A DNA stretch of 64,000 bases, taken from contig NZ_CP159837.1 of NCBI RefSeq assembly GCF_040564635.1, forward strand, positions 2,607,001 to 2,671,000. The letters run 5' to 3'. Position 1 is the stretch's first letter; each line of letters starts with the position of its first letter. Shown here one piece after another: positions 12,530 through 49,441 of the stretch. The stretch is from Planktothricoides raciborskii GIHE-MW2 (lineage in GTDB: Bacteria; Cyanobacteriota; Cyanobacteriia; Cyanobacteriales; Laspinemataceae). Under the pieces are notes generated by a model, which saw nothing but the letters and a program-made list of their open reading frames with translations, made no database searches and was not told the DNA's origin. The position numbers and the translations under genes are program-made.

Positions 12530-12685
12530 GTGCTCAACGCCTTACGGCATCATACCAAATCCGGTTGTTAAAACCCGTTTATCAGGTCAGATGTCATTCC
12601 CGCGAAGGCGGGAATCCACAAGCGTTTTAGGTAACGATCGTAGTCAGTATATGAGAACCGGATTTGGTATCAGAGGTAAGAGCAA
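12530..12685 (-). CRISPR. Outermost CRISPR repeat, split by a MITE-like element
   Basis: 12530-12552 equals the first 23 bases of the array repeat (plus-strand reading GTGCTCAACG...GGCATCA) and 12670-12685 equals its last 16 bases (TCAGAGGTAAGAGCAA). Together they make 39 bases, the 36-base repeat with TCA duplicated at the insertion point. The 117-bp element 12553-12669 sits between. This is the trailer-end (oldest) repeat. Confidence 0.9.
12553..12669. mobile_element. MITE-like element, copy B, inserted in a CRISPR repeat
   Basis: 117 bp with perfect 12-bp terminal inverted repeats TACCAAATCCGG / CCGGATTTGGTA, flanked by a 3-bp target duplication TCA that is certain because the uninterrupted repeat is known from the array. 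The interior has the TCATTCCCGCG...CGGGAATCCAC palindrome shared with copy A. No coding capacity. Confidence 0.88.
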
Positions 12686-12954
12686 CGAATTTACAGCGGT
12701 TTTCAGATTGCTGAACCACGGTAGGACCCGCGCATTCCGTAGGGGCGTCCTTGCGGAGCATAATCCGTCAGGCTTTATGGCCAGAAAGCCCGTACATTTA
12801 ATATTTTAAGCATTGTAGGGGCGAATGGCCATTCGCCCTGGTACGGGCGAATGGCCATTCGCCCCTACGGAATGCTTCGCCCCTACAGATGCTTTGTGGT
12901 TTACTCGCGGCAGATTTGCGCTATAAGTCAAACTCTAGGTTTCGGTTTGGTGGT
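12686..12954. other. Eroded trailer of the CRISPR array with inserted palindromic repeats
   Basis: 269 bp between the split repeat and the first intact repeat. About 35 bases after the split repeat could be its old spacer. Then come two copies of the hairpin GGGCGAATGGCCATTCGCCC (around 12815-12870) and an AGCATAATCC/GAATGCTTCGCCCC palindrome. No intact repeat is present, so at least one repeat may have been lost or overwritten. No gene seen. Confidence 0.65.
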
Positions 12955-15900
12955 GTGCTCAACGCCTTACGGCATCAGAGGTAAGAGCAAACAGAGGTAA
13001 AGGTATGGGTGTTGAATACAAGACAAGGTGCTCAACGCCTTACGGCATCAGAGGTAAGAGCAAAGCAGTAGAAAAATCATCTTTTGAAACATACAATAGT
13101 GCTCAACGCCTTACGGCATCAGAGGTAAGAGCAACTTTGCCCTGCTGTCTCGATTCGACGATCATCAATGTGCTCAACGCCTTACGGCATCAGAGGTAAG
13201 AGCAAAACCCAAACACTTCGCGGACTAAGCTTAGATGAAACTGTGCTCAACGCCTTACGGCATCAGAGGTAAGAGCAATCTTCGTCTTTGCATCGAGTTA
13301 ACTCCTCGAAAGGTGCTCAACGCCTTACGGCATCAGAGGTAAGAGCAACGCGAACCGTTGCGAAGGTGATCATTATGCAGCGATTAGTGCTCAACGCCTT
13401 ACGGCATCAGAGGTAAGAGCAAACAAGTGTCCTCCACCTTGGATTGGCGCTACGTTTACCCGTGCTCAACGCCTTACGGCATCAGAGGTAAGAGCAAAAA
13501 CCTAAACAGTGAAGAAACCATAAAGGCAATAAAGTGCTCAACGCCTTACGGCATCAGAGGTAAGAGCAATTTCGATCGACGGCTGAAAATGCCCAAGAAA
13601 AGAGTGCTCAACGCCTTACGGCATCAGAGGTAAGAGCAAATAAGAACAAGTAACCCGCACCTCAATAATTTCACCGTCGTGCTCAACGCCTTACGGCATC
13701 AGAGGTAAGAGCAAAAGAGTATAACGAAGCGCTGCAAAGAGGTAGCGCCGTGCTCAACGCCTTACGGCATCAGAGGTAAGAGCAACTAGACCATGACTGG
13801 GAAAATAATATTAAGGCACATTGTGCTCAACGCCTTACGGCATCAGAGGTAAGAGCAAAATAAAATATGGAATGATTCGCGCGGTTTTATCAGTGCTCAA
13901 CGCCTTACGGCATCAGAGGTAAGAGCAAGTCTGCAATGGGGATAGCGGTAAAAGCGACTACAGTGCTCAACGCCTTACGGCATCAGAGGTAAGAGCAAAA
14001 TCAACCAACTAACAACACTACCAGAACTTATAAGTGCTCAACGCCTTACGGCATCAGAGGTAAGAGCAATCTCAGCCGTGTAAGAGTGATAGACGTGAAC
14101 ATAGAGGTGCTCAACGCCTTACGGCATCAGAGGTAAGAGCAACTAAAGGAAAGTAGCAGTCCGTTATTTTTTTGATTAGTGCTCAACGCCTTACGGCATC
14201 AGAGGTAAGAGCAATGAATTTGACCAATGTCTCCACCTGAAACCAACCAATGTGCTCAACGCCTTACGGCATCAGAGGTAAGAGCAAAAGACAATTGCAA
14301 CGACTGAGACTGGGATATTAGGTGCTCAACGCCTTACGGCATCAGAGGTAAGAGCAATTTAATTGTTTGGGTTAATAATTCTTTTTGTAGTTTGTGCTCA
14401 ACGCCTTACGGCATCAGAGGTAAGAGCAAGCGACGGCATCAAAATATGAATCAATGTCAACTAGACGTGCTCAACGCCTTACGGCATCAGAGGTAAGAGC
14501 AATTCAAAGCCTGATGGTTTAGCGCTCAATTCAAATAGTGCTCAACGCCTTACGGCATCAGAGGTAAGAGCAAAATGTAGGTAAATAATATGCCAATCGG
14601 TATCGAATTGTGCTCAACGCCTTACGGCATCAGAGGTAAGAGCAATTGATTGATTGTTTGTGCTTTTTGGATAGAAGAAGGTGCTCAACGCCTTACGGCA
14701 TCAGAGGTAAGAGCAATTTATTGAAACTGTTACTCAATTTAGCAGTCGCCCAGTGCTCAACGCCTTACGGCATCAGAGGTAAGAGCAAAAGAAATGGGGG
14801 AGATGGCGAGTCTGCCATCCAGTGCTCAACGCCTTACGGCATCAGAGGTAAGAGCAATTGGGAAGCGCGAAATATGTGGTGACAATACCTGTGCTCAACG
14901 CCTTACGGCATCAGAGGTAAGAGCAATAGGGCAGCTTTATTCAAGCTTTCCCTCTGCTTTTCGTGCTCAACGCCTTACGGCATCAGAGGTAAGAGCAAGG
15001 TGTGCGGAAAGGATGGCTCACCCCCCAGTACAGTGCTCAACGCCTTACGGCATCAGAGGTAAGAGCAAGAAAACGATTTCCGAACCATCGTCGCGGTTTG
15101 CAGGTGCTCAACGCCTTACGGCATCAGAGGTAAGAGCAACAAAAATGCACAAATATCGCACGTCAAGTTTTCGTGCTCAACGCCTTACGGCATCAGAGGT
15201 AAGAGCAAAGTTATTTCAAAGTCTGGTTCGTCCCTGTCAAGAAAAGTGCTCAACGCCTTACGGCATCAGAGGTAAGAGCAAAAGCTTAATGACTGTCGCC
15301 GATTTTGTGTGGGTATGTGCTCAACGCCTTACGGCATCAGAGGTAAGAGCAAGTGACGCAAATATCAGGGCGCATTGAATTTAAATTACTGTGCTCAACG
15401 CCTTACGGCATCAGAGGTAAGAGCAAATGACAAAATTAAAGATTGATAATTAGGAATCTCGTGCTCAACGCCTTACGGCATCAGAGGTAAGAGCAAAATT
15501 AATTTTGGTGATTCGCCATTGCCGGTCAATCGTGCTCAACGCCTTACGGCATCAGAGGTAAGAGCAAAATACTCCAATCCAGTCGATGTTTTGGGCAATT
15601 TCCGTGCTCAACGCCTTACGGCATCAGAGGTAAGAGCAACCATCTGCCACCGCCATTACTGGCGTTCCTTCTGGTGCTCAACGCCTTACGGCATCAGAGG
15701 TAAGAGCAAGGGTAGATTCAAAAACGCACAGCAGGAAGTTTTTGAGTGCTCAACGCCTTACGGCATCAGAGGTAAGAGCAACGCTTGCTTTTTAATTCTC
15801 AAGAACGGTTCCATCTGTGCTCAACGCCTTACGGCATCAGAGGTAAGAGCAATGTATCAAAACCGTGTTTTGACAGCACTAATTTAGTGCTCAACGCCTT

Positions 15901-16065
15901 ACGGCATCAGAGGTAAGAGCAAAATATTTTAAATTTCTTGTTCCCAGCCAAAAAATCGTGCTCAACGCCTTACGGCATCAGAGGTAAGAGCAAAGTTCCA
16001 GCACTGCCGAAAGTTCTCTTCCGTCCATCGTGCTCAACGCCTTACGGCATCAGAGGTAAGAGCAA
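12955..16065 (-). CRISPR. CRISPR array, 44 repeats of 36 bp and 43 spacers of 33-39 bp
   Basis: Direct repeats start at 12955, 13028, 13099, 13170 and so on to 16030, with a 69-75 bp period; as read, all 44 are identical. On the plus strand the repeat starts GTGCTCAACG and ends GTAAGAGCAA. I assign transcription to the minus strand. There the repeat contains GATGCC-GUAA-GGCGUU, a six-pair stem closed by a GNRA loop, followed by a short 3' tail TTGAGCAC of the size of a type I crRNA 5' handle. The cas operon runs the same way into the array, and the decayed repeat (12530) is at the left, trailer end. All spacers look unique; none was matched to a target here. Confidence 0.98.
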
Positions 16066-16337: not shown

Positions 16338-16634
16338 TCATAAAATCCGAAAACATTCTGGTTGGTCTGGCCAAGCCCCCTCTCGATTATAGGCCGGAAT
16401 CCCTTGCACGCATTGGTTTGGCAGCCGAACCAGCAGCAAATCATCCTCTGCGGTCAAAATCTTCTCCAACTCCCAGCGCAACTTTTCCCGTTCTCGCTGA
16501 GACAGCCAACAACGGAAAATAGAATATTGCATCCGTTCCCCATATCCCTCCATCAGCTTATATGCTTTGCGCCAACGTTTGGGACAGCGAATATCGTAAC
16601 AAATTAGATACCAATGTTTACTTTCAGCCATCAT
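16338..16634 (-). CDS. cas2: CRISPR-associated endoribonuclease/adaptor Cas2
   Basis: 98 residues (97 if the second Met is used). The start HWYLICYDIRCPKRWRK contains the conserved first-strand Asp (Asp14), and KLMEGYGERMQYSIFRCWLS is the typical Cas2 ferredoxin-fold core. Cas2 dimers bridge Cas1 dimers in the spacer-integration complex. The start lies 6 bp after the cas4-cas1 stop, with GAGGTGG just before it, so translation is probably coupled. It is the last gene of the operon, facing the leader and array. Confidence 0.95.
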   Translation of the reverse strand: MMAESKHWYLICYDIRCPKRWRKAYKLMEGYGERMQYSIFRCWLSQREREKLRWELEKILTAEDDLLLVRLPNQCVQGIPAYNREGAWPDQPECFRIL

Positions 16635-16640
16635 CCCACC

Positions 16641-18323
16641 TCAACGCAACACTAAATGACCAAACAAACCACCCTCACCAGACCATTCTTTTTCCAGTAA
16701 GCGGACTTCCAACTCCAATAACCGCTGATAAGTTAAGGAATAACCCGTCACTGGATGTTTCCAACTTTCCTGCTTGCGACGTTCGTACAGTTCCACCAAC
16801 TTACGGCGCCCTGAGTCACTCAACCAAACTTGGCAACCGCGCACTTCAAAATCTGCCTGAATATCCCATTGACCCCGGTTCACCGAACCCAGCACCACTA
16901 AATCCACTAAGGGGATTCGGAAAATTTCCATCAAATCCAAAGCCAAGGGTGCTGCCTGAGAACGCGGTTGATGATAAAATCCCAACGCTGACTCTAACCC
17001 CACGGTTAAAATCGCACTCATCACATCTTTAAGCAGTAAGGCATAGCCAAAACTCAATAAACAGTTAAACCGATCTTTGGGAGGGCGACGGTTGCGTCCG
17101 GCAAAGTGCATCTCTGGGGGTACTTGGGCGGAAATCAAATTGGGCAGTGCGCCAAAATACAAGGCCGCCAAGTTTCCCTCTAACCCCAATAAGGAGGCCA
17201 AAGATTCTGCCCGAGGCACTTGTTTAAGGACTTTTTGCATCTGAGAAATTGCCTCAGTCAGATTTTCCGGTACGGGTTTGAGTCCCCGTTTGCCCCGCAT
17301 CAATAATTGGCGCTGTCCTTTACCCCGACAATTGACCAGTTTTTTAGCCAAATCTAAGCAAGTTTCTGAAGATGTGAGGGCGGCATATTGGCGGATGCGT
17401 CGTTGGACCGACCCCTGACGACTGTCAAAACTGCCCATATACCGACCGCCACCGGATATCCAATGAACTGTGATATCTTCTCCGGCACAAAAATGCAACG
17501 CTTGGGTGGAAATTTGGGAAAAACTATGGAGCACTACCTGAGATACTTGTTGCGCGGGAATTTTTTCTACCGGCTGACCTTGACGAGAAATTTTGATTTG
17601 TTCTCCAGTCCGTCCCACGGCGGTTCCCGGTTCCAGGATATGCAGCACTTGGCGGCGATCGTCTTCAGGGAATAAACGCACTGGTTCCCACTCTGGGTTA
17701 TGGGCTAGTCGCGCTTCTTCGGGCAAACAAACCGGCGCCAAAGAACAGCGAGTACAGAGGCGTTCGTTGCTGCACACGGGAGGACGCTGTGTGGACGATC
17801 GCAGCTTTTTGGCTTGTTGAATTGCGTCTTGGACTGCTGTTCGTCCCGCTTGATCCAGGGGGACACGAATCAGCACATTCTCCGCGTGGTATCGGATTCG
17901 CCCTTCTGACACGGCAATTCCCAGGGCAGACTCTAGCAAACAACAATAGGCCAAAATTTGCAGGCGATCGGACTCCCAAGCTTGGGGTTGTTTATTTTCA
18001 TCTCGCTGAGGGCGTCCTCGTTTATGTTCATAAGGAATAGTTTGACCGTCGCGAGTTCGCAAGGCATCCATTCGTCCGCGTAATCCTAATTCTTCACTTT
18101 CGAGAAATAAATCTTCCCATTCTTCTTCTTCTTCTTTTTCCAATTCCTCATGCAACCGACGACCGGCAAAAACTGCCGCATCTTGGGTATAGAGTTCTTC
18201 CACTTCTTCCAGATAAAAAAGACGCGGACAATAGGCCAAAGCGTGTAAAGCGGCAACCCGAATGGTGTGGGATTTGGTTAAATCAGATTGGCTTAATTCG
18301 AGATTATTAGGTAATTGCAACAT
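16641..18323 (-). CDS. cas4-cas1: Cas4-Cas1 fusion protein (CRISPR adaptation)
   Basis: 560 residues from ATG 18321-18323 (MLQLPNNLELSQSD); an upstream TTG reading to 18353 would run into a pseudo-repeat and is unlikely. The N-terminal about 220 residues form the Cas4 RecB-like nuclease: one Cys in YCPRLFYLE, the D...E-x-K core (GRMDALR, IPYEHKRG) and three Cys in CSNERLCTRCSLAPVC, the usual iron-sulfur ligands. The C-terminal about 340 residues form Cas1, with the metal-binding Glu in GLEGNLAALYF, His in GFYHQPRS and the acidic ALDLMEIFR. Cas4 trims and orients PAM-containing prespacers and Cas1 integrates them. Fusion of the two is typical of MYXAN and some other type I systems. A pseudo-repeat hairpin (18346-18381) lies 22 nt upstream. 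Confidence 0.95.
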   Translation of the reverse strand: MLQLPNNLELSQSDLTKSHTIRVAALHALAYCPRLFYLEEVEELYTQDAAVFAGRRLHEELEKEEEEEWEDLFLESEELGLRGRMDALRTRDGQTIPYEHKRGRPQRDENKQPQAWESDRLQILAYCCLLESALGIAVSEGRIRYHAENVLIRVPLDQAGRTAVQDAIQQAKKLRSSTQRPPVCSNERLCTRCSLAPVCLPEEARLAHNPEWEPVRLFPEDDRRQVLHILEPGTAVGRTGEQIKISRQGQPVEKIPAQQVSQVVLHSFSQISTQALHFCAGEDITVHWISGGGRYMGSFDSRQGSVQRRIRQYAALTSSETCLDLAKKLVNCRGKGQRQLLMRGKRGLKPVPENLTEAISQMQKVLKQVPRAESLASLLGLEGNLAALYFGALPNLISAQVPPEMHFAGRNRRPPKDRFNCLLSFGYALLLKDVMSAILTVGLESALGFYHQPRSQAAPLALDLMEIFRIPLVDLVVLGSVNRGQWDIQADFEVRGCQVWLSDSGRRKLVELYERRKQESWKHPVTGYSLTYQRLLELEVRLLEKEWSGEGGLFGHLVLR

Positions 18324-18345: not shown

Positions 18346-18381
18346 GTTAACAACGCCTAACGGCATCAGCGGTAAATTCTA
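18346..18381 (-). promoter_or_regulatory. Solitary CRISPR pseudo-repeat in the cas4-cas1 leader
   Basis: 27 of 36 positions match the array repeat in the same orientation (core CAACGCCTAACGGCATCAG). On the minus strand the stem GATGCC/GGCGTT is fully kept and only the loop changes (GTTA instead of GTAA). It ends 22 nt before the likely cas4-cas1 start codon. No second repeat or spacer is adjacent. Likely a repeat-derived mRNA hairpin that Cas6 could bind; it may also be array debris. Confidence 0.8.
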
Positions 18382-18562
18382 GAGTTATTCAATGAGGAGA
18401 AACATGGTGCGTTACGGCGAAAAAGAAACCGGGTTTATATAACAATTTTGGTGGGATGACAGATATTTTCTAAAGAAACCCGGTTTCTGGCAGGCGATCG
18501 CTCAATATTTCTGGGGCAAACGCGCACCCTAATAAAAGATTAATTTAAGGTAAAACTTAAAT
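18382..18562. other. Short gap between cas5 and cas4-cas1 with dispersed repeats
   Basis: Contains ATGGTGCGTTACGGCG (around 18403, a half copy of the GGTGCGTTACGG family) and an AAGAAACCGGGTTT ... AAAGAAACCCGGTTTC inverted pair (around 18423-18488), the family that fills 25980-26510. No gene seen. Confidence 0.6.
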
Positions 18563-19198
18563 TTAATCAAAATCGATCGCTGTCCAAGCCATATCAGGGG
18601 GTTGGTAAATATTAGCCGGTTCTAAAATGTCATAGCGCCGCCAACGAGTTCCTTTTGAACCCACATGATCCACCCAATAAGGCAAAGTCAATAAACCATC
18701 TTCATTTTGCACTAACCAGCGCAAAGGTTCGGCAACTTCTCCTGACTTTACCGGAGTAATGGCATTGACTAAATCCCGGCTTTCTCCTAAACATAATCCC
18801 CCAAACCGATTCACCGTTGCGGGATTAATAAATGCTTGGTCTAAGCGGTTCGCTAAACTGGGTTTATTTGGCTCATTTCCCGTCGCCACCCACACCATAA
18901 ACCGAATATCTGTTAATAACTCTTGATAGTCGGGACGGGCGTTAGTCGGGTCATGGATATCCTGCTTTTTTACCCGGCGAAAAGTTCTAATTACTCTAGA
19001 GATTTGTGGTTCGGAAATGAGGGCGATCGCTAACTCACAACCACAATGTTGATAGCGGTCTATTTCTCCCACCATAGATAATAGCATTCCATACACCGTT
19101 GCTGGGGGTGGCACGGGATAAGTTTCCGCATATTCTCTCGCCCGTGACTGCCGAAAACAGGCGATCGGAACTTCAACTTTTAAAGTAATTGATTGCAT
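18563..19198 (-). CDS. cas5: CRISPR-associated protein Cas5 (DevS-like)
   Basis: 211 residues. The N-terminus ITLKVEVPIACFRQSRAREYAETYPVPPPATVYGML is the Cas5 RAMP signature: first beta strand, then the P-P-x-T-x-x-G-M-L stretch. A C-terminal Gly-containing stretch (RFGGLCLGESRDLVNAI) follows. Cas5 caps the 5' handle of the crRNA in the type I surveillance complex and contacts Cas8 and Cas7. The size and neighbours fit the DevS/Cmx5 group of MYXAN-type systems. It lies 133 bp downstream of cas7 and upstream of cas4-cas1 in the same operon. Confidence 0.9.
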   Translation of the reverse strand: MQSITLKVEVPIACFRQSRAREYAETYPVPPPATVYGMLLSMVGEIDRYQHCGCELAIALISEPQISRVIRTFRRVKKQDIHDPTNARPDYQELLTDIRFMVWVATGNEPNKPSLANRLDQAFINPATVNRFGGLCLGESRDLVNAITPVKSGEVAEPLRWLVQNEDGLLTLPYWVDHVGSKGTRWRRYDILEPANIYQPPDMAWTAIDFD

Positions 19199-19331
19199 AA
19201 CTTTTATTGTTGGTAAATTTTCTAATACAGCATTTTTCAGAACCTTTGCCCCTACAAGCCTGGATTTTAGGGGCTTTTGGCTTGGTAAAATTAATTAAGA
19301 AGTGGTGGGCAATGCCCACCCTACAGGAGAT

Positions 19332-20231
19332 TTATAACTGTAAATCTCTGGTAATTCTGGCTTGCAAATCAGTCACCGCTGCTTTCACCCCAGGAAATAA
19401 TTTAACCCCTAATTCATCTAACTTAGATCCGGTAGCAGTATGAGCGATCGCGCCCCCCACCCATAACTCTTTTGCCTCGATATCTCCTGCTTCAATGCGC
19501 CGCAATAAATCTGGGGCATAAATCGCCCCCTCATCATCTTCTTCAAAGCAATAAAGAAAACGCGGGGAAAAGTCATTTGTCCAACGCAACACAATACTAT
19601 CGGGAGAAAAATCATATAAAAATCGGGCATGATTTCCCCCCACTTCTCCAATAGAACTCAACCCATCTAAAGTCGGAATAATTCGCTCTTTAACTTTCAA
19701 TCGTTCCGGGGTCATAGCAAACCCATATTGATAGCGGGTGGCATGAACTTCTGTCCCATAAAGTGACGTTGACCCCTTCGCCCCACCCGTAGAATTAAAA
19801 GTAATATCTCCCGTATAAGGAATCATAGAAACAGCGCGAGTCACTTCCAAAACTCCTCGTTTTACGGTTGCGGTTCCTTTCGGGGGTTTTTTGCCTTTTT
19901 TTGGCGGATCCGATTCATCAACTTTTGCCCCTTCAGCCCGCATAAAGCCTAATACATCATCATCAATATAGAGTAACTCATCAAAATGATGACTTTGCCA
20001 ATCATAATCATTTTTCGCATCATGCCATTGCCGATTCACCTCAAAATCATATTCTGAATTTTGCCAAAAATATCGCAATGCCCAGCGAATTGCTTCTGCG
20101 GATACGGTGGTATGGACTTCTCCTTTCCACAGTAACTTTTGCAGAGTGGTAATATTGCCTTCATTCTCACCGCGATTGTTCGCTGCTGTACCATACACGG
20201 TCAAAATATTCCCAAACAAATGAAATGACAT
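19332..20231 (-). CDS. cas7: CRISPR-associated protein Cas7 (DevR-like backbone subunit)
   Basis: 299 residues from ATG 20229-20231 (MSFHLFGNILTVYGTAANNRGENEG), which has an AAAGGAAACGG ribosome site; a reading to 20261 is open but unsupported. N-terminal RAMP strand followed by the conserved NRGENEGN and LLWKGEVHTTVSAEAIRWALRY, the Cst2/DevR pattern. Cas7 polymerises along the crRNA spacer to form the backbone of the surveillance complex. A run of three 94-bp repeats separates it from cas8, so its translation or mRNA level may be set independently of cas8, as is common for this high-copy subunit. Confidence 0.92.
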   Translation of the reverse strand: MSFHLFGNILTVYGTAANNRGENEGNITTLQKLLWKGEVHTTVSAEAIRWALRYFWQNSEYDFEVNRQWHDAKNDYDWQSHHFDELLYIDDDVLGFMRAEGAKVDESDPPKKGKKPPKGTATVKRGVLEVTRAVSMIPYTGDITFNSTGGAKGSTSLYGTEVHATRYQYGFAMTPERLKVKERIIPTLDGLSSIGEVGGNHARFLYDFSPDSIVLRWTNDFSPRFLYCFEEDDEGAIYAPDLLRRIEAGDIEAKELWVGGAIAHTATGSKLDELGVKLFPGVKAAVTDLQARITRDLQL

Positions 20232-20383
20232 ATCCGTTTCCTTTTTTACAATGGTTAACAACTTGACCCTTGGTAGGGTGCGTTATGCGGCCAAAAATTT
20301 AAGCTTTTTTAGTTAATTGAATTTGCCGCCGTAACGCACCTTTATTTGATGAATTAAAGCCAATCAATGTTAATTGTTATGAG

Positions 20384-20640
20384 ATGGTGCGTTACGGCGG
20401 ATTCTGACATTTTTGGTGATTTTCACAGATTGTCGCCGCCTAACACACCCTACTAACGCCGCTTAATTAATTAGGACATGGTGCGTTACGGCGGATTCTG
20501 ACATTTTTGGTGATTTTCACAGATTGTCGCCGCCTAACACACCCTACCAAATCCTCTTAATTAATTAGGAGATGGTGCGTTACGGCGGATTCTGACATTT
20601 TTGGTGATTTTCACAGATTGTCGCCGCCTCACACACCCTA
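20384..20640. repeat. Three tandem 94-bp units with GGTGCGTTACGGCGG / CCGCCTAACACACC arms
   Basis: Unit starts at 20384, 20478 and 20572 (exact 94-bp period; the last unit is incomplete). Each unit contains arms GGTGCGTTACGGCGG and CCGCCTAACACACC around a 35-40 base loop, so each can fold as a long hairpin. Related single copies occur at 20271-20340, 36381-36410, 49038-49105, 49266-49330, 49360-49425, 54147-54222, 58136-58205 and 58327-58395. Here they sit within the cas operon, between cas8 and cas7. Confidence 0.9.
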
Positions 20641-20652
20641 CCTTAAATTAAT

Positions 20653-22233
20653 TTACAAATCTAAAATATCTGGCGGATCATATTCTGGGATATCTTCCTG
20701 ATTTTCATCGTTATCATTTTGCTGAAATATTTGCGGTCTCTTATAACTTGCTAATGCCAGCAAAGCCAAATCTCGAGTTTCCTTCCAATTAGCTTGTCCG
20801 GTCATCATGTCGATAAATTCATTCCAATGTTCTCGTAAAGTAGGAATGTTTCCTGCCCGTGCCCAAAATTTTACCATGAACTCTCGAAAACTTTCTGCAT
20901 TGCGACACCGAGTCAAACTGGTTCTAATTTTTACATTCTCTCGATTAATATTACTTTCGATTATTTTTTTTTCTTCAAGAGTCAGTTCATTATTTTTTTT
21001 ATCTTTGAACTTTCCTCTTGCTTTGCCATAAGTGAAATAAAGGCATTCGTGACAAGCTTGCACGAATAATCGTTTTGTTTCTGGTTTTAACTTTTGCACC
21101 ATTTTATATAGTCCCTCTCGTTCATAGGTTAATTTTTGGAATGACTCATTACTATTTACATAGTCGGATAAGCCTAAATACCAAGGCTGAGATTTTACCA
21201 AATTTTCGGTAATAATCTCTCTGGCAAAACTGCGAGCAATAAAACTGGTGTCATTTTTTCCCTTGACAATGCGATCGCGAAAATAACTCTGACAATCTTG
21301 ATAAACTTGGCAAATTTCGTCATCTGCTTTCACTAAATATAAATCAGTACGAGTTTTTTGCTGGGCAGACCAAGAAACCGTCCCTAATGTCACCACCTGA
21401 CAACTGGAAACCCCATAAGTTTCGGTAATATTTATCGTGGTTTCAGCGGTTAAAAACCTTAAACCCGCATCCCCCAATCCACAAGCATAAAAATCTTGAT
21501 ATCCTTGCAATCTTAACTTAGACTGTTGACGATATTTGGCATAGGTTTCTAAATCCCGAACTTCAGGAATTACCAAAGCATATTGGGCGCGTTTATCCCG
21601 TAATTGCGATCGCAGAATATAATAACAACAACCCACGCAAGCAAACAGCAAAACCAAAGCAAACTCTGGGGGTTCTTCAAAGCTAGTCTGCCCAGAAAAT
21701 GCCGTATGCCGTACCACCGCCCCAGGATTTAACCACCCTGGCACCTTTAGCGGTTCTTTTGATAAGTTTCCCTCTCGATCGCACAAATTTTTAGCAAATT
21801 CTTGATACACATAACCACTCAATGATTTATATTGTACCACCAGAGGGGGATGTTCTTCATCAAGTTGAAATGATTTTTGTTCATTGCCTAATTTTGTGTG
21901 AGTTTTATTGTGCTGTAAGAACGTGCCTAAAATTCCTTGGTGCAAAATCATCTGATTTTGAATATCCATTGTTTTGCTGTCCAAACCTCGCAGGCAAATC
22001 ACCCCATCTTTTAACTGAAATGACTCTTGCAATAACCAATTCATTACCTCTAAATCATTGCCGTTCCAAGATAAAATCACTCGACGGCGATCGCATTGCC
22101 AATCCAAGCCACCGGGACGATTTTCTACCTGAGTTTCTCTGCCCAATTGCCGTAAACTCATCCACAAACCCGCTAAACCTGCCCGGTGCAATAAAGTAAA
22201 ATTAGGATTGCCTAAATCTAATTCTATTTTCAT
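20653..22233 (-). CDS. cas8: CRISPR-associated large subunit Cas8 (Cas8a1/Csx13, MYXAN type)
   Basis: 526 residues. The start LDLGNPNFTLLHRAGLAGLWMSLRQL resembles the N-terminal region of the MYXAN-type Cas8a1/Csx13 (DevT) family; the rest has no simple motif. The identity rests on this start, the size and the position between cas3 and cas7. Cas8 recognises the PAM and recruits Cas3. The ATG overlaps the cas3 stop in an ATGA, so the two are translationally coupled. Whether the system is called I-A or I-B depends on the classification scheme; Dev-type is safer. The C-terminus is acidic (DNDENQEDIPEYDPPD). Confidence 0.85.
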   Translation of the reverse strand: MKIELDLGNPNFTLLHRAGLAGLWMSLRQLGRETQVENRPGGLDWQCDRRRVILSWNGNDLEVMNWLLQESFQLKDGVICLRGLDSKTMDIQNQMILHQGILGTFLQHNKTHTKLGNEQKSFQLDEEHPPLVVQYKSLSGYVYQEFAKNLCDREGNLSKEPLKVPGWLNPGAVVRHTAFSGQTSFEEPPEFALVLLFACVGCCYYILRSQLRDKRAQYALVIPEVRDLETYAKYRQQSKLRLQGYQDFYACGLGDAGLRFLTAETTINITETYGVSSCQVVTLGTVSWSAQQKTRTDLYLVKADDEICQVYQDCQSYFRDRIVKGKNDTSFIARSFAREIITENLVKSQPWYLGLSDYVNSNESFQKLTYEREGLYKMVQKLKPETKRLFVQACHECLYFTYGKARGKFKDKKNNELTLEEKKIIESNINRENVKIRTSLTRCRNAESFREFMVKFWARAGNIPTLREHWNEFIDMMTGQANWKETRDLALLALASYKRPQIFQQNDNDENQEDIPEYDPPDILDL

Positions 22234-24677
22234 GGTTCTTCTGCCCCCGTTGATTCACTGTAATTAATGACATCTTTTGGACAAACTGGATAAAATCCAA
22301 TTCGTCGCCAAGTTCTAAATTCGGACATAATTCGGATGGGAACTGACCAACGTTGTGCTTCTTTCATAAATGATTTATCCTTACGCTTATTTGCGGCATA
22401 TTTAATTTTGGCTATATCCTGTTCAAGTAATACGGTGATGGTATAACCAGCATCGCGCAAAAAATCTGAATGATTACACCAATGACCGTGTAACCATTTA
22501 GACTCTACGGGGGTTGGTTGGGTAGAGTCAAGGGTAGCAGCAACTTGGGCTAAATCAGCTTGAGAAATTGCTAAACCAGCCAAATTTTCCAGTAATTTTT
22601 TCCCTGTGGCAAGTTCTATTTTTTTATAAGGTTTTACATTTTCCCAATCATAAATAATGGCTGGGCAAATACCGCCGGACATTAGACGCACATTGTCAAT
22701 TTCATCAATGACAACATAGCGGTTGAGTCGTCCCAAGCGTTGAATTAAGGCAGCAGCAGGGGCGATCGCAGATATTAGTAAATCCGCACTTAAATCTAAA
22801 GACATCTCGCAAACTTGCGTGGTAATAGCCAAAACTGGAGAATCTCCTTTAAATGCCTCCACTACCTCTTTATGTCTTTCCAAACGCTCTTTATAGCGAT
22901 AGCGACTGTGATAAATCAGCGGTTGAATTGGCAAATTCGGCAAATGTTCAGTCAATTGTTTTTTTGCCTGACCATATAAATCAATACAACTTTGTACCGA
23001 GTTCGTCACCCAGAGAATTTTGGCTGCTTTTTGCGGGTTAGCCAAAGTTTCGATAACTCTTGGCCAAATTTGCGGCATTTCCTGAATTTTCTGGAGTTGA
23101 TACCGAGGAATCGTTTCTAAATTTTGCGGTCCCTCGATGATTTGGATTTCCTCCTGTAATTCATCCATAACTTGCTGAATAGCCGCTAATTGCCCCTCGG
23201 TAAAACTGGCACTCATTAATAAAATTGGTGCGCCGGTAAATGTCTGCAAAAATCGCAGCAATGCCCCAAATAGGCGATCGTCATAAGCGTGAACCTCATC
23301 AAACACAAAAGCTGATTGACAAATTGCTGGCCAAGAATACAAAGGTTTGCGGTTATTTTGAATTAGCCCCAATACAGAATCAACGGTACAAACGATTAAC
23401 TTGGCTTCCCATGCAGCGAATGCTGCCAGCCGAGAATTAATTCCCTCGGCATCATGTTCATTTGGTTCGTTCTCAGACTCGCGAGAAAATAATATTTCTT
23501 CTAAATCAATTTCTGCACGAGAATGCATTAACTGGGCTTCGATTTCCGTTTCAGCGGCATAATCTAAATAACCCTGAGATGCGGTGCCCGTGGTGGGATA
23601 GCCAAAAAATAATTTTCGCCCTATTGCCCATTTTTTACCCCAAGCATAAGCCGCCACAGTTTTACCCGTTCCACAGCCAGCTTTGACTAAAGTTACGCGG
23701 TTTTTGGTTGTGGCAATTTGTTGTTGAAAAGGACGCAGCATTTGTCCTTTTAGCCGTTGTTCTAATAACTGAGAAATCTCTGTTTCGGATAATACTAAGT
23801 CTAAAACTTGTGCGATCCAGTCTTTAATCTCATATCCCTTGGCAGGTAATGCAGAACCGGCTAAGTCAGCCGCCATCACCGTGGCTTTTACTGCGGCAAT
23901 AAATTTTTGTCTTTGCCAGTCTTTTTGCTCTTTTATAGATTCTTCAATATCAATAAATTCTCGCTTAAGTCTGGTTAGTTGTTCCTGAATTTGAGATTTT
24001 GTCCAAGTTTCCTCTGGCAATTTTGGTAACTCAGCAGGCAACCCTAACTGTTTACCCATTTTTAAAATAGTGCTAAAATCAGAATGGTGAGTATAAATTT
24101 CTAATTTTTCTCCTGTTCCCGGAATCAGTTCGGTAATACAGCCGTTTGGTTGCTTATATTTATTCAGACCAATTTTTAAATGATGTCCCATTGCTGCCCA
24201 AACCGCTGCAATTAAATCCGTATTGGGCGCTTTTTCTAACCATTGTCTAATGCTGGGAACGCCAAGGGCTAAAATTCCACTAATAATTTCATGGCGAATC
24301 ATTTGGCGATCGATATGTTCTTTACTTGATTTCTCTATTTTCTTTCTATATTGACGATTTTTTTCATCCAGTAATTTCGGATCGAGAGATTTCAAATAAA
24401 CCATTTCCTGAAAATGTTGATTGGCTTTGCCCCAGTCATGGAGATAAGCCCCCAACCGGACTGTATTGTGAAAATACTCTCGGTCTATTTCTGGTAAACC
24501 TAATTGATTCAGGATGGTTGCGCCTAACTTTTCTAATAACACATCAGCGGAATTCATCACCGCTTGAATATGTCCGGTATAAGTGGCGGCGCCTTTAGCC
24601 ATTGGATGTAAATCTTCCTCTTTTTTTGATAGAGGCAGAGATTTTGCTAATAGTCTTTTAAATTCTTTAGATTTCAT
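22230..24677 (-). CDS. cas3: CRISPR-associated helicase-nuclease Cas3 (HD domain N-terminal)
   Basis: 815 residues from ATG 24675-24677 (MKSKEFKRLLAKSLPLSKKEED); the open frame to 24740 only adds codons from a palindromic repeat. The HD nuclease domain has GHIQAVM, GAYLHDWGKANQHF (HD pair) and MGHHLK. The superfamily 2 helicase has the P-loop KAGCGTGKT, FDEVHAYDD (DEVH box), SASFTEG and a C-terminal QRLGRLNRY (motif VI). Cas3 is recruited by target-bound Cascade and degrades the DNA. All catalytic motifs are intact, so interference is expected to work. It is second in the operon after cas6 and overlaps cas8 by 4 bases. Confidence 0.95.
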   Translation of the reverse strand: MKSKEFKRLLAKSLPLSKKEEDLHPMAKGAATYTGHIQAVMNSADVLLEKLGATILNQLGLPEIDREYFHNTVRLGAYLHDWGKANQHFQEMVYLKSLDPKLLDEKNRQYRKKIEKSSKEHIDRQMIRHEIISGILALGVPSIRQWLEKAPNTDLIAAVWAAMGHHLKIGLNKYKQPNGCITELIPGTGEKLEIYTHHSDFSTILKMGKQLGLPAELPKLPEETWTKSQIQEQLTRLKREFIDIEESIKEQKDWQRQKFIAAVKATVMAADLAGSALPAKGYEIKDWIAQVLDLVLSETEISQLLEQRLKGQMLRPFQQQIATTKNRVTLVKAGCGTGKTVAAYAWGKKWAIGRKLFFGYPTTGTASQGYLDYAAETEIEAQLMHSRAEIDLEEILFSRESENEPNEHDAEGINSRLAAFAAWEAKLIVCTVDSVLGLIQNNRKPLYSWPAICQSAFVFDEVHAYDDRLFGALLRFLQTFTGAPILLMSASFTEGQLAAIQQVMDELQEEIQIIEGPQNLETIPRYQLQKIQEMPQIWPRVIETLANPQKAAKILWVTNSVQSCIDLYGQAKKQLTEHLPNLPIQPLIYHSRYRYKERLERHKEVVEAFKGDSPVLAITTQVCEMSLDLSADLLISAIAPAAALIQRLGRLNRYVVIDEIDNVRLMSGGICPAIIYDWENVKPYKKIELATGKKLLENLAGLAISQADLAQVAATLDSTQPTPVESKWLHGHWCNHSDFLRDAGYTITVLLEQDIAKIKYAANKRKDKSFMKEAQRWSVPIRIMSEFRTWRRIGFYPVCPKDVINYSESTGAEEP

Positions 24678-24718
24678 TAGAGAATAGGGAACGGGGAACT
24701 GGGAACTGGGAAGAGGAT

Positions 24719-24738
24719 GCATCCTATGCATAGGATGC
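24719..24738. promoter_or_regulatory. Perfect 20-bp palindrome GCATCCTATGCATAGGATGC
   Basis: A perfect dyad between cas6 and cas3, followed by one more half unit (ATAGGATGC to 24747). It is long enough for a dimeric regulator; it could also be an isolated palindromic repeat. It also makes up the extended N-terminus of the longer cas3 reading frame, which argues against that longer start. Confidence 0.7.
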
Positions 24739-24771
24739 ATAGGATGCTAATGAAAGAGGGAATATTTCCCA

Positions 24772-24801
24772 TGTAGGGGTCAAAGGCTGTTGACCCCTAC
24801 A
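24772..24801. terminator. Hairpin TGTAGGGGTCA / TGACCCCTACA over the cas6 stop codon
   Basis: An 11-bp perfect stem with an 8-nt loop; the cas6 stop codon (24797-24799) lies in one arm. No T-run follows, so it is more likely an mRNA stability or processing hairpin between cas6 and cas3 than a true terminator. Confidence 0.6.
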
Positions 24802-25450
24802 TATCAGAAGGGACAAAAATTCCTGCACCCATTTTTCGGCGACCCCCTAAACCGAATTGTTGCAATTTTAAAGAGTCTTCATTGCTTAAATTACTGATTT
24901 TGGTGGTAAAACCCACTATCTGATGCCGTTTAATTTTTATGGTTTTTCGACTAAATTTGCCGTCACGTTGTAAAGGGATAGAAACTTGACCGCTAATTTC
25001 CAAAGCATCAAGCTGACGTTGTGCAGCGGCTAAAAAAACATCGGGTTCACTATATCCTTTGAGCACCACAATTCGCGCTTTCAGGGTGGAGACGGGTCGC
25101 AAGAGGGAAACTGCCGGAATGCCAATGTCTACGGGATGAATGCCAATCCGAATTTTTTTACCTGCGATCGCATATACGAGGGGAATTTGACTCAGGGGGA
25201 CTCGAATCCGCAAATGAGATTGCTGGGTCAGCAAAATCTTGCCTGCGCGATCGGGAATTCCTGGAATAGTCAGAATTTGAAGCTGTTCTTGTTCGTGAAA
25301 AGCCTCGCATTGGTGAACCAAGGCAGCATAGAGTCCATATCCGTGATCCGCAGGAAGCGATCGCCCTCTCACCGGGAAACTCAGTTCCACGAAAGGCTCA
25401 ATTTCGCCTATTGCACTATAAAACATCGTATTTTTTGAAAAAAATGCCAT
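24797..25450 (-). CDS. cas6: CRISPR repeat endoribonuclease Cas6 (Cmx6-like)
   Basis: 217 residues from ATG 25448-25450 (MAFFSKNTMFYSAIGEIEPFVE), preceded by AGGAG. An upstream ATG at 25495 would add 15 residues encoded by a pseudo-repeat (MMPSGAEMNIRRHID), so I reject it. Two RAMP-like halves; a glycine-rich loop near the C-terminus (FGLGGRRKMGAGIF) is the Cas6 signature. His36 in PADHGYGLY is a candidate catalytic residue (inference). It fits the Cmx6 family of MYXAN systems by start, size and operon. It cuts at the repeat hairpin to make crRNAs. As first gene of the operon, its leader contains a two-pseudo-repeat mini-array. Confidence 0.9.
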   Translation of the reverse strand: MAFFSKNTMFYSAIGEIEPFVELSFPVRGRSLPADHGYGLYAALVHQCEAFHEQEQLQILTIPGIPDRAGKILLTQQSHLRIRVPLSQIPLVYAIAGKKIRIGIHPVDIGIPAVSLLRPVSTLKARIVVLKGYSEPDVFLAAAQRQLDALEISGQVSIPLQRDGKFSRKTIKIKRHQIVGFTTKISNLSNEDSLKLQQFGLGGRRKMGAGIFVPSDM

Positions 25451-25471
25451 ATCTATATGTCTCCTAATGTT

Positions 25472-25574
25472 CATCTCAGCGCCGGACGGCATCAAAGTGG
25501 ATTAACTCAGAGAAAGAATCAACATCCCAGAGGAGTGTTTAACGCCTGACGGCATCAGAGGTGATTAGGAGCAA
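25472..25574 (-). CRISPR. Pseudo-repeat mini-array in the cas operon leader
   Basis: Two degenerate copies of the array repeat in the array orientation: 25472-25507 (20 of 36 matches overall, 19 of 23 in the core) and 25535-25570 (27 of 36; GCAAC follows after a 5-nt insertion). Start-to-start distance is 63 bp, leaving a pseudo-spacer of about 27-35 nt. Both keep the stem (GATGCC/GGCGCT and GATGCC/GGCGTT) with loops GTCC and GTCA instead of GTAA. The proximal copy ends 21 nt before the likely cas6 start. Confidence 0.85.
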
Positions 25575-25646
25575 CCGAGGGCATGGTAAGCCTCAAGGCC
25601 GCAAAAACTTAAACTCGCTCCGAGTCTTGGTTATTGCACTTTAAAA

Positions 25647-25735
25647 TTGCTCAACGCTTTGTTACTCAACGCTTTGTTGCTCAACACTTTGGTTTTAAAG
25701 CTTGCGGAATTAGAGATTAAAGCATCAGAGGTGAT
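25647..25735 (-). CRISPR. Further decayed repeat with three 15-bp units
   Basis: 25647-25691 is three tandem 15-mers (TTGCTCAACGCTTTG and two variants), each resembling the first part of the array repeat. After about 30 unrelated bases, GCATCAGAGGTGAT (25722-25735) matches the second part. This looks like an old repeat whose first half was amplified and whose stem region was lost, upstream of the mini-array. Confidence 0.6.
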
Positions 25736-25850
25736 ATATGTTCGGGATTATAACACACATTCCGGCAGTTGGCGAAAAAATTTACCGGAGTTGGACTTAC
25801 CCACGGACTCTAAGGGTAAGGTGGGTAAAAGCCCACCCGCCCTACCTACT

Positions 25851-48991: not shown

Positions 48992-49441
48992 TTTTGGGTA
49001 ATTTTGGCTAATTTTGGGTATGAATTGCCCGCCTGTGGTGCGTTACGGCTGGAATAGAGGTTGATTGTTTTTTCTCAAGTTACTTGCCAGCCTAACACAC
49101 CCTACACCCTACACCCTGGGGAGAAGTGAAAAGTCGTAGGGGCGAATGGCCATTCGCCCGTACAAGTGAAAAGCTATGCCTAAATATCACTATTCACTAT
49201 TCACTATTCACTATTCACTATTCACTATTCACTCTTCCCTACACCCTACACCCTACACCCTCCGTATGGTGCGTTACGGCTGGAATAGAGGTTAATTGTT
49301 TATGTCAAAGTTAATCGCCAGCCTAACACACCCTACACCCTACACCCTACACCCTCCGTATGGTGCGTTACGGCTGGAATAGAGGTTAATTGTTTATGTC
49401 AAAGTTAATCGCCAGCCTAACACACCCTACATTTTGCTACT
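48992..49441. repeat. Repeat-filled intergenic region, three GGTGCGTTACGGCTGG units
   Basis: No gene seen. Units with GGTGCGTTACGGCTGGAATAG ... GCCAGCCTAACACACCCTAC lie at about 49037-49106, 49266-49336 and 49360-49430 (the last two almost identical). Between them are a GGGCGAATGGCCATTCGCCC hairpin (49141-49160), about six ATTCACT units (49193-49232) and runs of CTACACC. Confidence 0.85.

Follow-up and report, generated by a model that had tools for sequence, protein, structure and literature searches.

How a CRISPR-Cas system (clustered regularly interspaced short palindromic repeats and associated proteins) holds its own cas genes in check is the question raised by a 64,000-nt stretch of the genome of Planktothricoides raciborskii GIHE-MW2 (contig NZ_CP159837.1, positions 2,607,001 to 2,671,000; hereafter the window, in whose numbering all coordinates are given), in which copies of the array repeat also lie directly before cas genes. 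The system is of type I-MYXAN, with cmx6, cas8a1/cmx1, cmx5 and the MYXAN Cas1 all scoring above curated cut-offs, and its operon runs on the minus strand in the order cas6, cas3, cas8a1, cas7, cas5, cas4-cas1, cas2 and then the CRISPR array. A preliminary description had pointed to two degenerate repeats in the leaders of cas6 (25472-25507) and cas4-cas1 (18346-18381), suggesting that Cas6 or a complex of Cas6 with CRISPR RNA (crRNA) binds them as mRNA hairpins and so sets cas expression. Both repeats are present on the minus strand in array orientation, reading GATGCC-GTCC-GGCGCT and GATGCC-GTTA-GGCGTT respectively, and they end 21 and 22 nt before the ATG codons of cas6 (25450) and cas4-cas1 (18323). 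They are not the product of chance. With up to three mismatches allowed, the window contains 48 copies of a 16-nt repeat core where 0.26 would be expected, 45 of them in the array (its split last repeat included) and three in the two cas leaders, and three of the six non-array sites for GATGCCGTNNGGCGTT with at most one mismatch in the whole 7.2 Mb genome fall in these leaders.

The two-hairpin picture was nevertheless incomplete, overlooking a better-kept repeat (25535-25574) and a guide-bearing repeat (25647-25733) further upstream of cas6. The operon probably carries two repeat-derived controls, a guide RNA of the CreR type (crRNA-like regulator) in the cas6 leader and a solitary hairpin before cas4-cas1. 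Self-control of cas genes by conserved, repeat-derived elements survives from the earlier proposal, with a CreR-type guide unit in the cas6 leader in place of a bare hairpin, and the main control of cas6 would be best explained by Cascade (CRISPR-associated complex for antiviral defence) being guided to the start of cas6 rather than by Cas6 alone acting on a hairpin.

A probable guide unit upstream of cas6

The cas6 leader holds what looks like a CreR-type unit, psiR1-psiS-psiR2 (25733-25535, minus strand), in which degenerate copies of the CRISPR repeat stand outside the array and adjoin cas genes, as in CreR. The sequence following the handle of psiR1, from 25646 onwards (TTTTAAAGTGCAATA), forms the guide segment psiS (25575-25646), whose first 15 nt (25632-25646) match the start region of cas6 (p=0.01 against 100 shuffles). 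The target (25409-25426, minus strand) consists of an ATG (25424-25426) followed by TTTTATAGTGCAATA (25409-25423) and begins 24 nt inside the cas6 open reading frame (ORF). Guide and target match at 14 of 15 positions, the sole mismatch being at position 6, and this is the only site in the 7.2 Mb genome at one mismatch or fewer. On one side of the guide, psiR1 (25647-25733) is a very degenerate repeat with a possible stem (GATGCTTT/AAAGCGTT) and 15-nt tandem copies, ending in a handle-like AAAGCGTTGAGCAA (terminal GCGTTGAGCAA), a motif common to the psiR1 of other loci. The tandem copies lie at 25650-25691 and themselves end in handle-like GTTGAGCAA/GTTGAGTAA. On the other side psiR2 (25535-25574) is a well-kept ectopic repeat with a 4-nt insertion, the loop GTCA and a match to Rfam CRISPR-DR33 below the gathering score, and the stretch 25531-25574 folds better than its shuffles (z -2.2, the array repeat giving z -3.1). 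Just upstream of psiR1 is a promoter-like site (25747-25775, minus strand; TCGCCA, 17 nt, TATAAT with TG), a weak signal given that the consensus scan found one such site against a mean of 0.9 in shuffles. A hairpin with a T-rich tail within psiS (25611-25627, minus strand) is a possible 3′ end of the CreR RNA; the terminator-like scan found two such sites, one per strand, against a mean of 0.6, and inspection by eye revealed no similar tail in L024, a locus of the same family.

From the sequence we infer that psiR1-psiS-psiR2 would be transcribed into a crRNA-like RNA, with a predicted 5′ part of TTGAGCAA followed by TTTTAAAGTGC, which, after processing at its repeat hairpins, would be taken up by the Cascade of the same system. 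The loaded complex would be guided to ATG-TTTTATAGTGCAATA at the start of cas6, where pairing on the seed side over some 15 nt (15-17 nt among relatives), and thus short of full length, would lead to binding and a roadblock. Plentiful free Cascade would in this way damp cas transcription, and additional array crRNA or an anti-CRISPR drawing Cascade off would raise it. Such a rise in cas expression on titration of Cascade is described for CreR in a review (PMC12737573).

The same design recurs beyond the window. The sample comprised 81 cyanobacterial loci, the window and 80 further I-MYXAN loci (L022-L101, with L022 from the same species as the window), grouped by family labels and Cas6 identity. 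Handle motifs were sought upstream of cas6 or cas8 and the segment behind each was scored as a guide with neither the protospacer adjacent motif (PAM) nor position weights. L069, L070, L073 and L074 stood outside the cas6-side test because an array is located there; partial or weak places (among them G183, G290, G179 and G113, over the cut-off), G059 and G076 lay outside the cyanobacterial sample. There were 32 handles to test, in 27 of the 81 loci, and 21 of them were followed by a segment with significant partial complementarity to the local cas promoter or start region (p≤0.02). In all 21 an ATG precedes the target, and in 18 the target sits 93-224 nt after the handle, toward the gene. Among 299 random decoy guides drawn from cas6 regions (50 shuffles each), 17 reached p≤0.02, with an ATG in three of these 17 and in five of the 299 overall. 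Thirteen family labels are represented among the 21 significant genomes, whose guides fall, by eye, into about 17 clearly distinct sequences. Mismatches at positions 1 to 18 numbered 0, 0, 0, 1, 1, 13, 0, 0, 4, 1, 2, 13, 1, 1, 1, 4, 6 and 15, such that pairing is free at positions 6 and 12 and stops near 17. Type I Cascade tolerates a mismatch at every sixth base, and the observed pattern is as expected of it. Both the PAM and the 6-nt periodicity of pairing emerged from a scoring that used neither.

The ATG itself has precedent, being a preferred PAM of the B-type arrays (dev, MxI-B) of Myxococcus xanthus (PMC11237760). For myxobacterial B-type arrays (the MxI-B dev system and III-B) the same source gives ATG as the commonest PAM in IMG/VR at 36.8%, with TTG at 13.2%, a degenerate PAM of WTB, and an interference plasmid for MxI-B that carried ATG (PMC11237760). 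This published Myxococcus PAM was used because a phage search with the spacers of the window gave one weak match, which lay within the segment that splits the last repeat of the array.

Two further arrangements were seen among the cyanobacterial units. Upstream of cas6 or cas8 in L046, L051, L052, L053, L091, L092 and L095 the guide and a minus-strand target are the two arms of a long inverted repeat that encloses psiR2, and some of these targets sit, by eye, just before a -10-like box. In L024 and L056 the psiR1 region contains a copy of the target with its ATG, located 35 and 42 nt before the guide begins, so that the CreR of these loci may repress its own transcript too.

Solitary hairpins before cas4-cas1, cas7 and cas6

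Apart from the guide unit, some cas genes are preceded by single repeat hairpins. The segment after the cas4-cas1 hairpin (18346-18381, minus strand) gave no local target when treated as a guide (p 0.80), its six genome-wide sites at two mismatches including the element itself, and the segment after psiR2 at 25535 likewise had no local target (p 0.69) and 12 two-mismatch sites genome-wide, none of them inside the window. The idea that the leader hairpins of the window are guides themselves was rejected on these grounds. Across the sample, 39 leader elements were tested as single-repeat guides and only those of L049, L055 and L059 reached p 0.02, the rest giving p≥0.10; these three are the psiR1 of CreR units.

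When 250-nt leaders were scanned for matches better than 300 shuffled repeats (p<0.01), hairpins were found in the forward orientation in 16 of 57 cas4-cas1 leaders, 6 of 70 cas7 leaders and 17 of 81 cas6 leaders (several of the last being CreR repeats), with no reverse match in any of the three. A handful of matches is the noise level, since the leaders of cas5 (0/56 forward, one reverse), cas8 (0/56 forward, three reverse) and cas3 (2/71 forward, five reverse) give few forward and one to five reverse matches. The recurrence of the cas4-cas1 hairpin across genera, confined to the sense strand, together with an inner stem that is preserved and a handle that is not, is what a Cas6 site in mRNA would show and supports the earlier suggestion in outline; the equal spacing from the start codons does not hold. 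Among the 16 cas4-cas1 leaders the distance ranges from 27 to 194 nt, being 27-75 nt in 11, 133 nt in one and 175-194 nt in four whose Cas6 is 36-40% identical to that of the window, and exactly equal spacing was rejected as evidence. Before cas7 the distance is 22-41 nt in seven of nine leaders with p<0.02. The hairpins were also credited with more strength than they have, as against shuffles the copy at 25472-25507 folds no better (z -0.16) and that before cas4-cas1 slightly better (z -1.0).

What has been retained of the repeat is mainly the inner stem. In 38 solitary elements (pair counts exclude L022) the inner four pairs are mostly kept (U-G in 32; the fourth pair GC in 26, GU in seven and AU in four; C-G in 35; C-G in 36), the second outer pair is frequently missing and the loops vary, with GNRA in seven of 38 against 47 of 53 array repeats. 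The stem is kept across relatives before cas4-cas1 and cas7 and partly before cas6, bearing in mind that detection by similarity favours kept stems; this bears less on the strand asymmetry and on the substitutions of AU for GC pairs. Between the window and L023 and L024 all 16 core bases of the cas4-cas1 hairpin are identical, with flank identities of 0.36-0.65, and over all 153 leader pairs the core averages 0.72 against 0.54 and 0.51 in the flanks and 0.49 in shuffled flanks. Supposing that cleavage by Cas6 falls after GGCG and yields the 8-nt handle UUGAGCAC, solitary hairpins would have kept the part that Cas6 recognises and dropped the part needed only in crRNA. Co-variation with the local repeat, which had been put forward as a check, was not shown. 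In L064 the array repeat has the stem CTCC/GGAG, yet a hairpin copy 599 nt before cas6 retains CGCC/GGCG; a similar hairpin before cas4-cas1 of this locus was noted by eye only (p 0.26).

Cas6 recognition of the cas4-cas1 hairpin is plausible. This hairpin, perhaps together with the one nearest cas6, would be a place in the mRNA that Cas6 recognises or cleaves without a guide, and Cas6 would there cut or cover the operon message before the adaptation genes, processing the polycistronic mRNA or tuning its translation. Repeat hairpins directly before cas7 and cas4-cas1 could in this way give Cas6 a regulatory role over the mRNA of its own operon. The stronger form of this idea, in which Cas6 or a Cas6-crRNA complex binds the hairpins of both leaders and sets the expression of cas6 and cas4-cas1 with no guide involved, has somewhat less than an even chance of being right. 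The sense-strand bias, the kept inner stem and the lost handle near the starts of cas4-cas1, cas7 and cas6 speak for it, as does the finding that Cas6f binds and cleaves the solitary repeat of a phage RNA anti-CRISPR (Racr; PMC10651486). The repeats of the cas6 leader, however, are better explained by a guide with a unique, PAM-flanked target, and the hairpin nearest cas6, for all that it recurs in the same-species locus L022, folds weakly and has no counterpart at a score of at least 22 in the same-family loci L023 and L024.

Alternatively the solitary hairpins could be DNA operators at which Cas4-Cas1-Cas2 represses its own adaptation genes, a suggestion favoured by their position directly before cas4-cas1 and by the fact that Cas1-Cas2 read repeat DNA. 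It is an unlikely one, given that similar hairpins also precede cas7, that the stem keeps U-G pairs which pair only in sense RNA and that every cas4-cas1 match is on the sense strand (16 against 0), although a near-palindromic operator could face either way.

Dev-type loci of Myxococcus

The dev operon of M. xanthus is an MxI-B system with Cas8a1 and a Cas4-Cas1 fusion (PMC11237760), which is equated here with I-MYXAN. DevTRS negatively autoregulates dev by a mechanism reported as unknown, with matching CRISPR spacers apparently absent (PMC8616872). Myxococcaceae were sampled by a scan for a high-GC Cas1 motif, which gave L145 (Myxococcus sp. CA023), and by a family search, in which cas6_cmx6 was found in 24 of 96 genomes. 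In all 28 myxococcal loci were scanned, with G480, G478 and two minor places outside the sample, and the eight loci with a full operon in the CA023 order (L160, L163-L167, L169 and L170) were aligned. Eight handles could be tested among the 28 loci, of which four were significant, all four with an ATG before the target.

These four belong to dev-type loci (L163, L165, L169 and L170, half of the eight aligned), where a CreR-like design is aimed at the start of a small ORF of 43, 51, 44 and 53 aa respectively, called devI-like here on the basis of its position, size and common first residues; beyond its first ten residues the L163 protein departs from the other three. A handle, GTGTTGAGCAA, lies 91-137 nt before cas6, preceded by a hairpin of varying sequence (by eye, not folded) and followed by the guide TTGGTGYYKGYYCAGGT, with a second repeat after the guide in L163, L165 and L170; in L169 no such repeat was found. 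The guide matches the devI-like ORF directly after its ATG (p=0.01 in each locus), with mismatches in the first 18 positions at 6, 9 and 18 in L163, 9 in L165, 6 and 9 in L169 and 9, 12 and 18 in L170, and each of the four genomes contains a single site with the exact target pattern. Position 9 is often mismatched elsewhere too, in four of the 21 cyanobacterial cases as in all four of Myxococcus, perhaps as a means of avoiding Cas3 activation. In the other four dev-type loci neither target nor handle motif was found, and the leader segment is missing in the alignment. The guide unit would offer a testable mechanism for the autoregulation of dev by DevTRS.

That in Myxococcus the guide is directed at the beginning of a devI-like ORF, devI being a sporulation inhibitor (PMC8730458), and that the anatomy of CreA is identical (PMC9458426), could also suggest that the RNA is the CreA-type antitoxin of a CreTA/CrePA addiction module rather than a cas regulator. 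This is improbable, as the only target site in the window genome is the cas6 start itself and, among 15 sense-strand targets (a further eight are on the minus strand), three share the frame of cas6, while the ATG of the other 12 opens a frame of no more than 28 codons in 11 and of 58 codons in L060. Slightly less credible still is the view that the leader repeats are functionless relics of decayed or inserted arrays, for even though arrays can sit upstream of cas4-cas1 (a second CRISPR array does so in L028) and ectopic repeats are generally degenerate (PMC9458426), ATG-flanked matches to the local cas leader are kept across about 17 different guides, the cas4-cas1 core is conserved between the window and L023/L024 as its flanks are not, and reverse-strand matches are lacking in the cas4-cas1, cas7 and cas6 leaders.

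Several observations weigh against the combined interpretation of guide RNA and hairpin. In the window itself the very degenerate psiR1 shows no folding beyond that of shuffles over its 101-nt stretch (z -0.29), and the gap between psiR1 and psiR2 is 72 nt and not about 30, leaving the mature RNA uncertain. The handle motif was not found in 54 of the 81 loci, so the unit need not be universal, and 11 of the 32 handles were not significant. Three of these, L034 (TTG), L049 (ATG) and L084 (ATG), had p 0.03 and L077, with an ATG, p 0.22; the other seven had neither target nor ATG, several being second repeats of a unit, including the 25535 copy of the window. In three of the 21 significant cases the best target lies upstream of the handle. 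For L024 this is an extra copy of the target within psiR1, the target at the cas6 start being found as well, and for L056 it likewise lies in psiR1; in L060 it is 397 nt upstream and may be false. The cases are of limited independence, with L022 from the species of the window and L023 and L024 sharing its guide. A phage-database set places TTG (21%) above ATG and ACG (17% each; PMC11237760). For the solitary elements, being found via repeat similarity builds part of the stem conservation in, and a small number of the 38 are questionable (the piece W000 6277 is part of psiR1 and that at L034 10070 is in an ORF); the missing counterpart of the 25472-25507 hairpin in L023 and L024 counts here as well. 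Finally, according to a review, DevTRS feedback does not depend on the activity of Cas3 or Cas6 (PMC8616872), although a neighbouring III-B system, whose repeats are nearly identical to those of MxI-B (PMC11237760), may supply the processing. A distinct antisense RNA acting on devI is also mentioned in another review (PMC8730458).

There is about as much reason to accept as to doubt the wider proposal, namely that I-MYXAN systems would control themselves in two layers, a CreR guide and solitary hairpins read by Cas6, standing for the most part 20-75 nt ahead of cas7, cas4-cas1 and in some cases cas6, by which the mRNA is cut up or tuned, and that the same guide design, with the devI start codon as PAM, would explain DevTRS autoregulation. 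It would provide a concrete mechanism for the negative autoregulation of dev, a developmental switch that Cas proteins operate and for which the literature reports no matching spacer (PMC8616872).

The locus and its known relatives

All genes of the operon are on the minus strand. cas6 (cmx6; 24797-25450) matches TIGR02807 at 234.9 bits, cas3 (22230-24740) TIGR01587 and TIGR01596, cas8a1 (cmx1/csx13; 20653-22233) TIGR03485 and TIGR03486, cas7 of the DevR family (19332-20231) TIGR02585 and TIGR01875 ('DevR family CRISPR-associated autoregulator'), cas5 (cmx5/DevS; 18563-19198) TIGR02586, the cas4-cas1 fusion (16641-18323) TIGR03983 at 580.3 bits and TIGR00372, and cas2 (16338-16634) TIGR01573. 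The array (12955-16065, minus strand) contains 44 identical 36-nt repeats, TTGCTCTTACCTCTGATGCCGTAAGGCGTTGAGCAC, and a final repeat split by about 100 bp with inverted ends (ACCAAATCCGG ... CCGGATTTGGT; 12530-12690) resembling a miniature inverted-repeat transposable element. Tandem units of 94 bp with a common GGTGCGTTACGGC-type motif occur at 20370-20642, between cas8 and cas7, and at 49237-49431.

Among known systems, tracr-L of Streptococcus pyogenes and scaRNA of Francisella novicida likewise repress their own or other genes through partially matching RNA (PMC8616872; PMC8730458), but belong to type II and act with Cas9. The Racr RNA anti-CRISPRs resemble the solitary hairpins in being repeat hairpins with no spacer that are expected to engage Cas6, differing as inhibitors encoded by viruses or plasmids (PMC10651486), whereas the elements of the window stand in cas leaders on a 7.2 Mb contig. 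CreTA/CrePA modules share one or two psiR with a psiS, a partial target close to a promoter and, as predicted here, repression by Cascade (PMC9458426; PMC12737573); at the window locus, by contrast, no toxin gene was seen under the target, which is in cas6 and has no other site in the genome within one mismatch. The devI case of Myxococcus is closer to them in function but lies inside the leader of a cas operon. The dev operon of M. xanthus (PMC8616872; PMC8730458; PMC11237760) has the same cas order and a DevR-family Cas7, and in four of the eight dev-type loci a guide unit stands between the devI-like ORF and cas6, with the devI-like start and not cas6 as its target.

The nearest relative is CreR (Liu et al., 2023, known here through PMC13131331, PMC12737573 and PMC12948488), with which the unit shares degenerate repeats, a spacer-like segment partly matching the cas promoter region, a predicted crRNA-like RNA and predicted autorepression guided by Cascade. 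CreR is thus a kind already known, named for types I-B, I-E and V-A (PMC13131331), and its occurrence in I-MYXAN may already be in print, as a review calls it widespread in type I (PMC12737573). Among the literature matches listed, whose coverage leaves out most subscription papers, there was none for CreR in I-MYXAN, the link to dev or solitary hairpins before cas7 and cas4-cas1. What sets the present units apart from the CreR described is their type, I-MYXAN, their hosts, Cyanobacteria and Myxococcota, and their ATG-flanked targets, to which the window adds a very degenerate psiR1, the 72-nt gap and a target inside the start of the cas6 ORF. If the interpretation given here is correct, self-control of the CreR type would extend to the I-MYXAN systems of both phyla.

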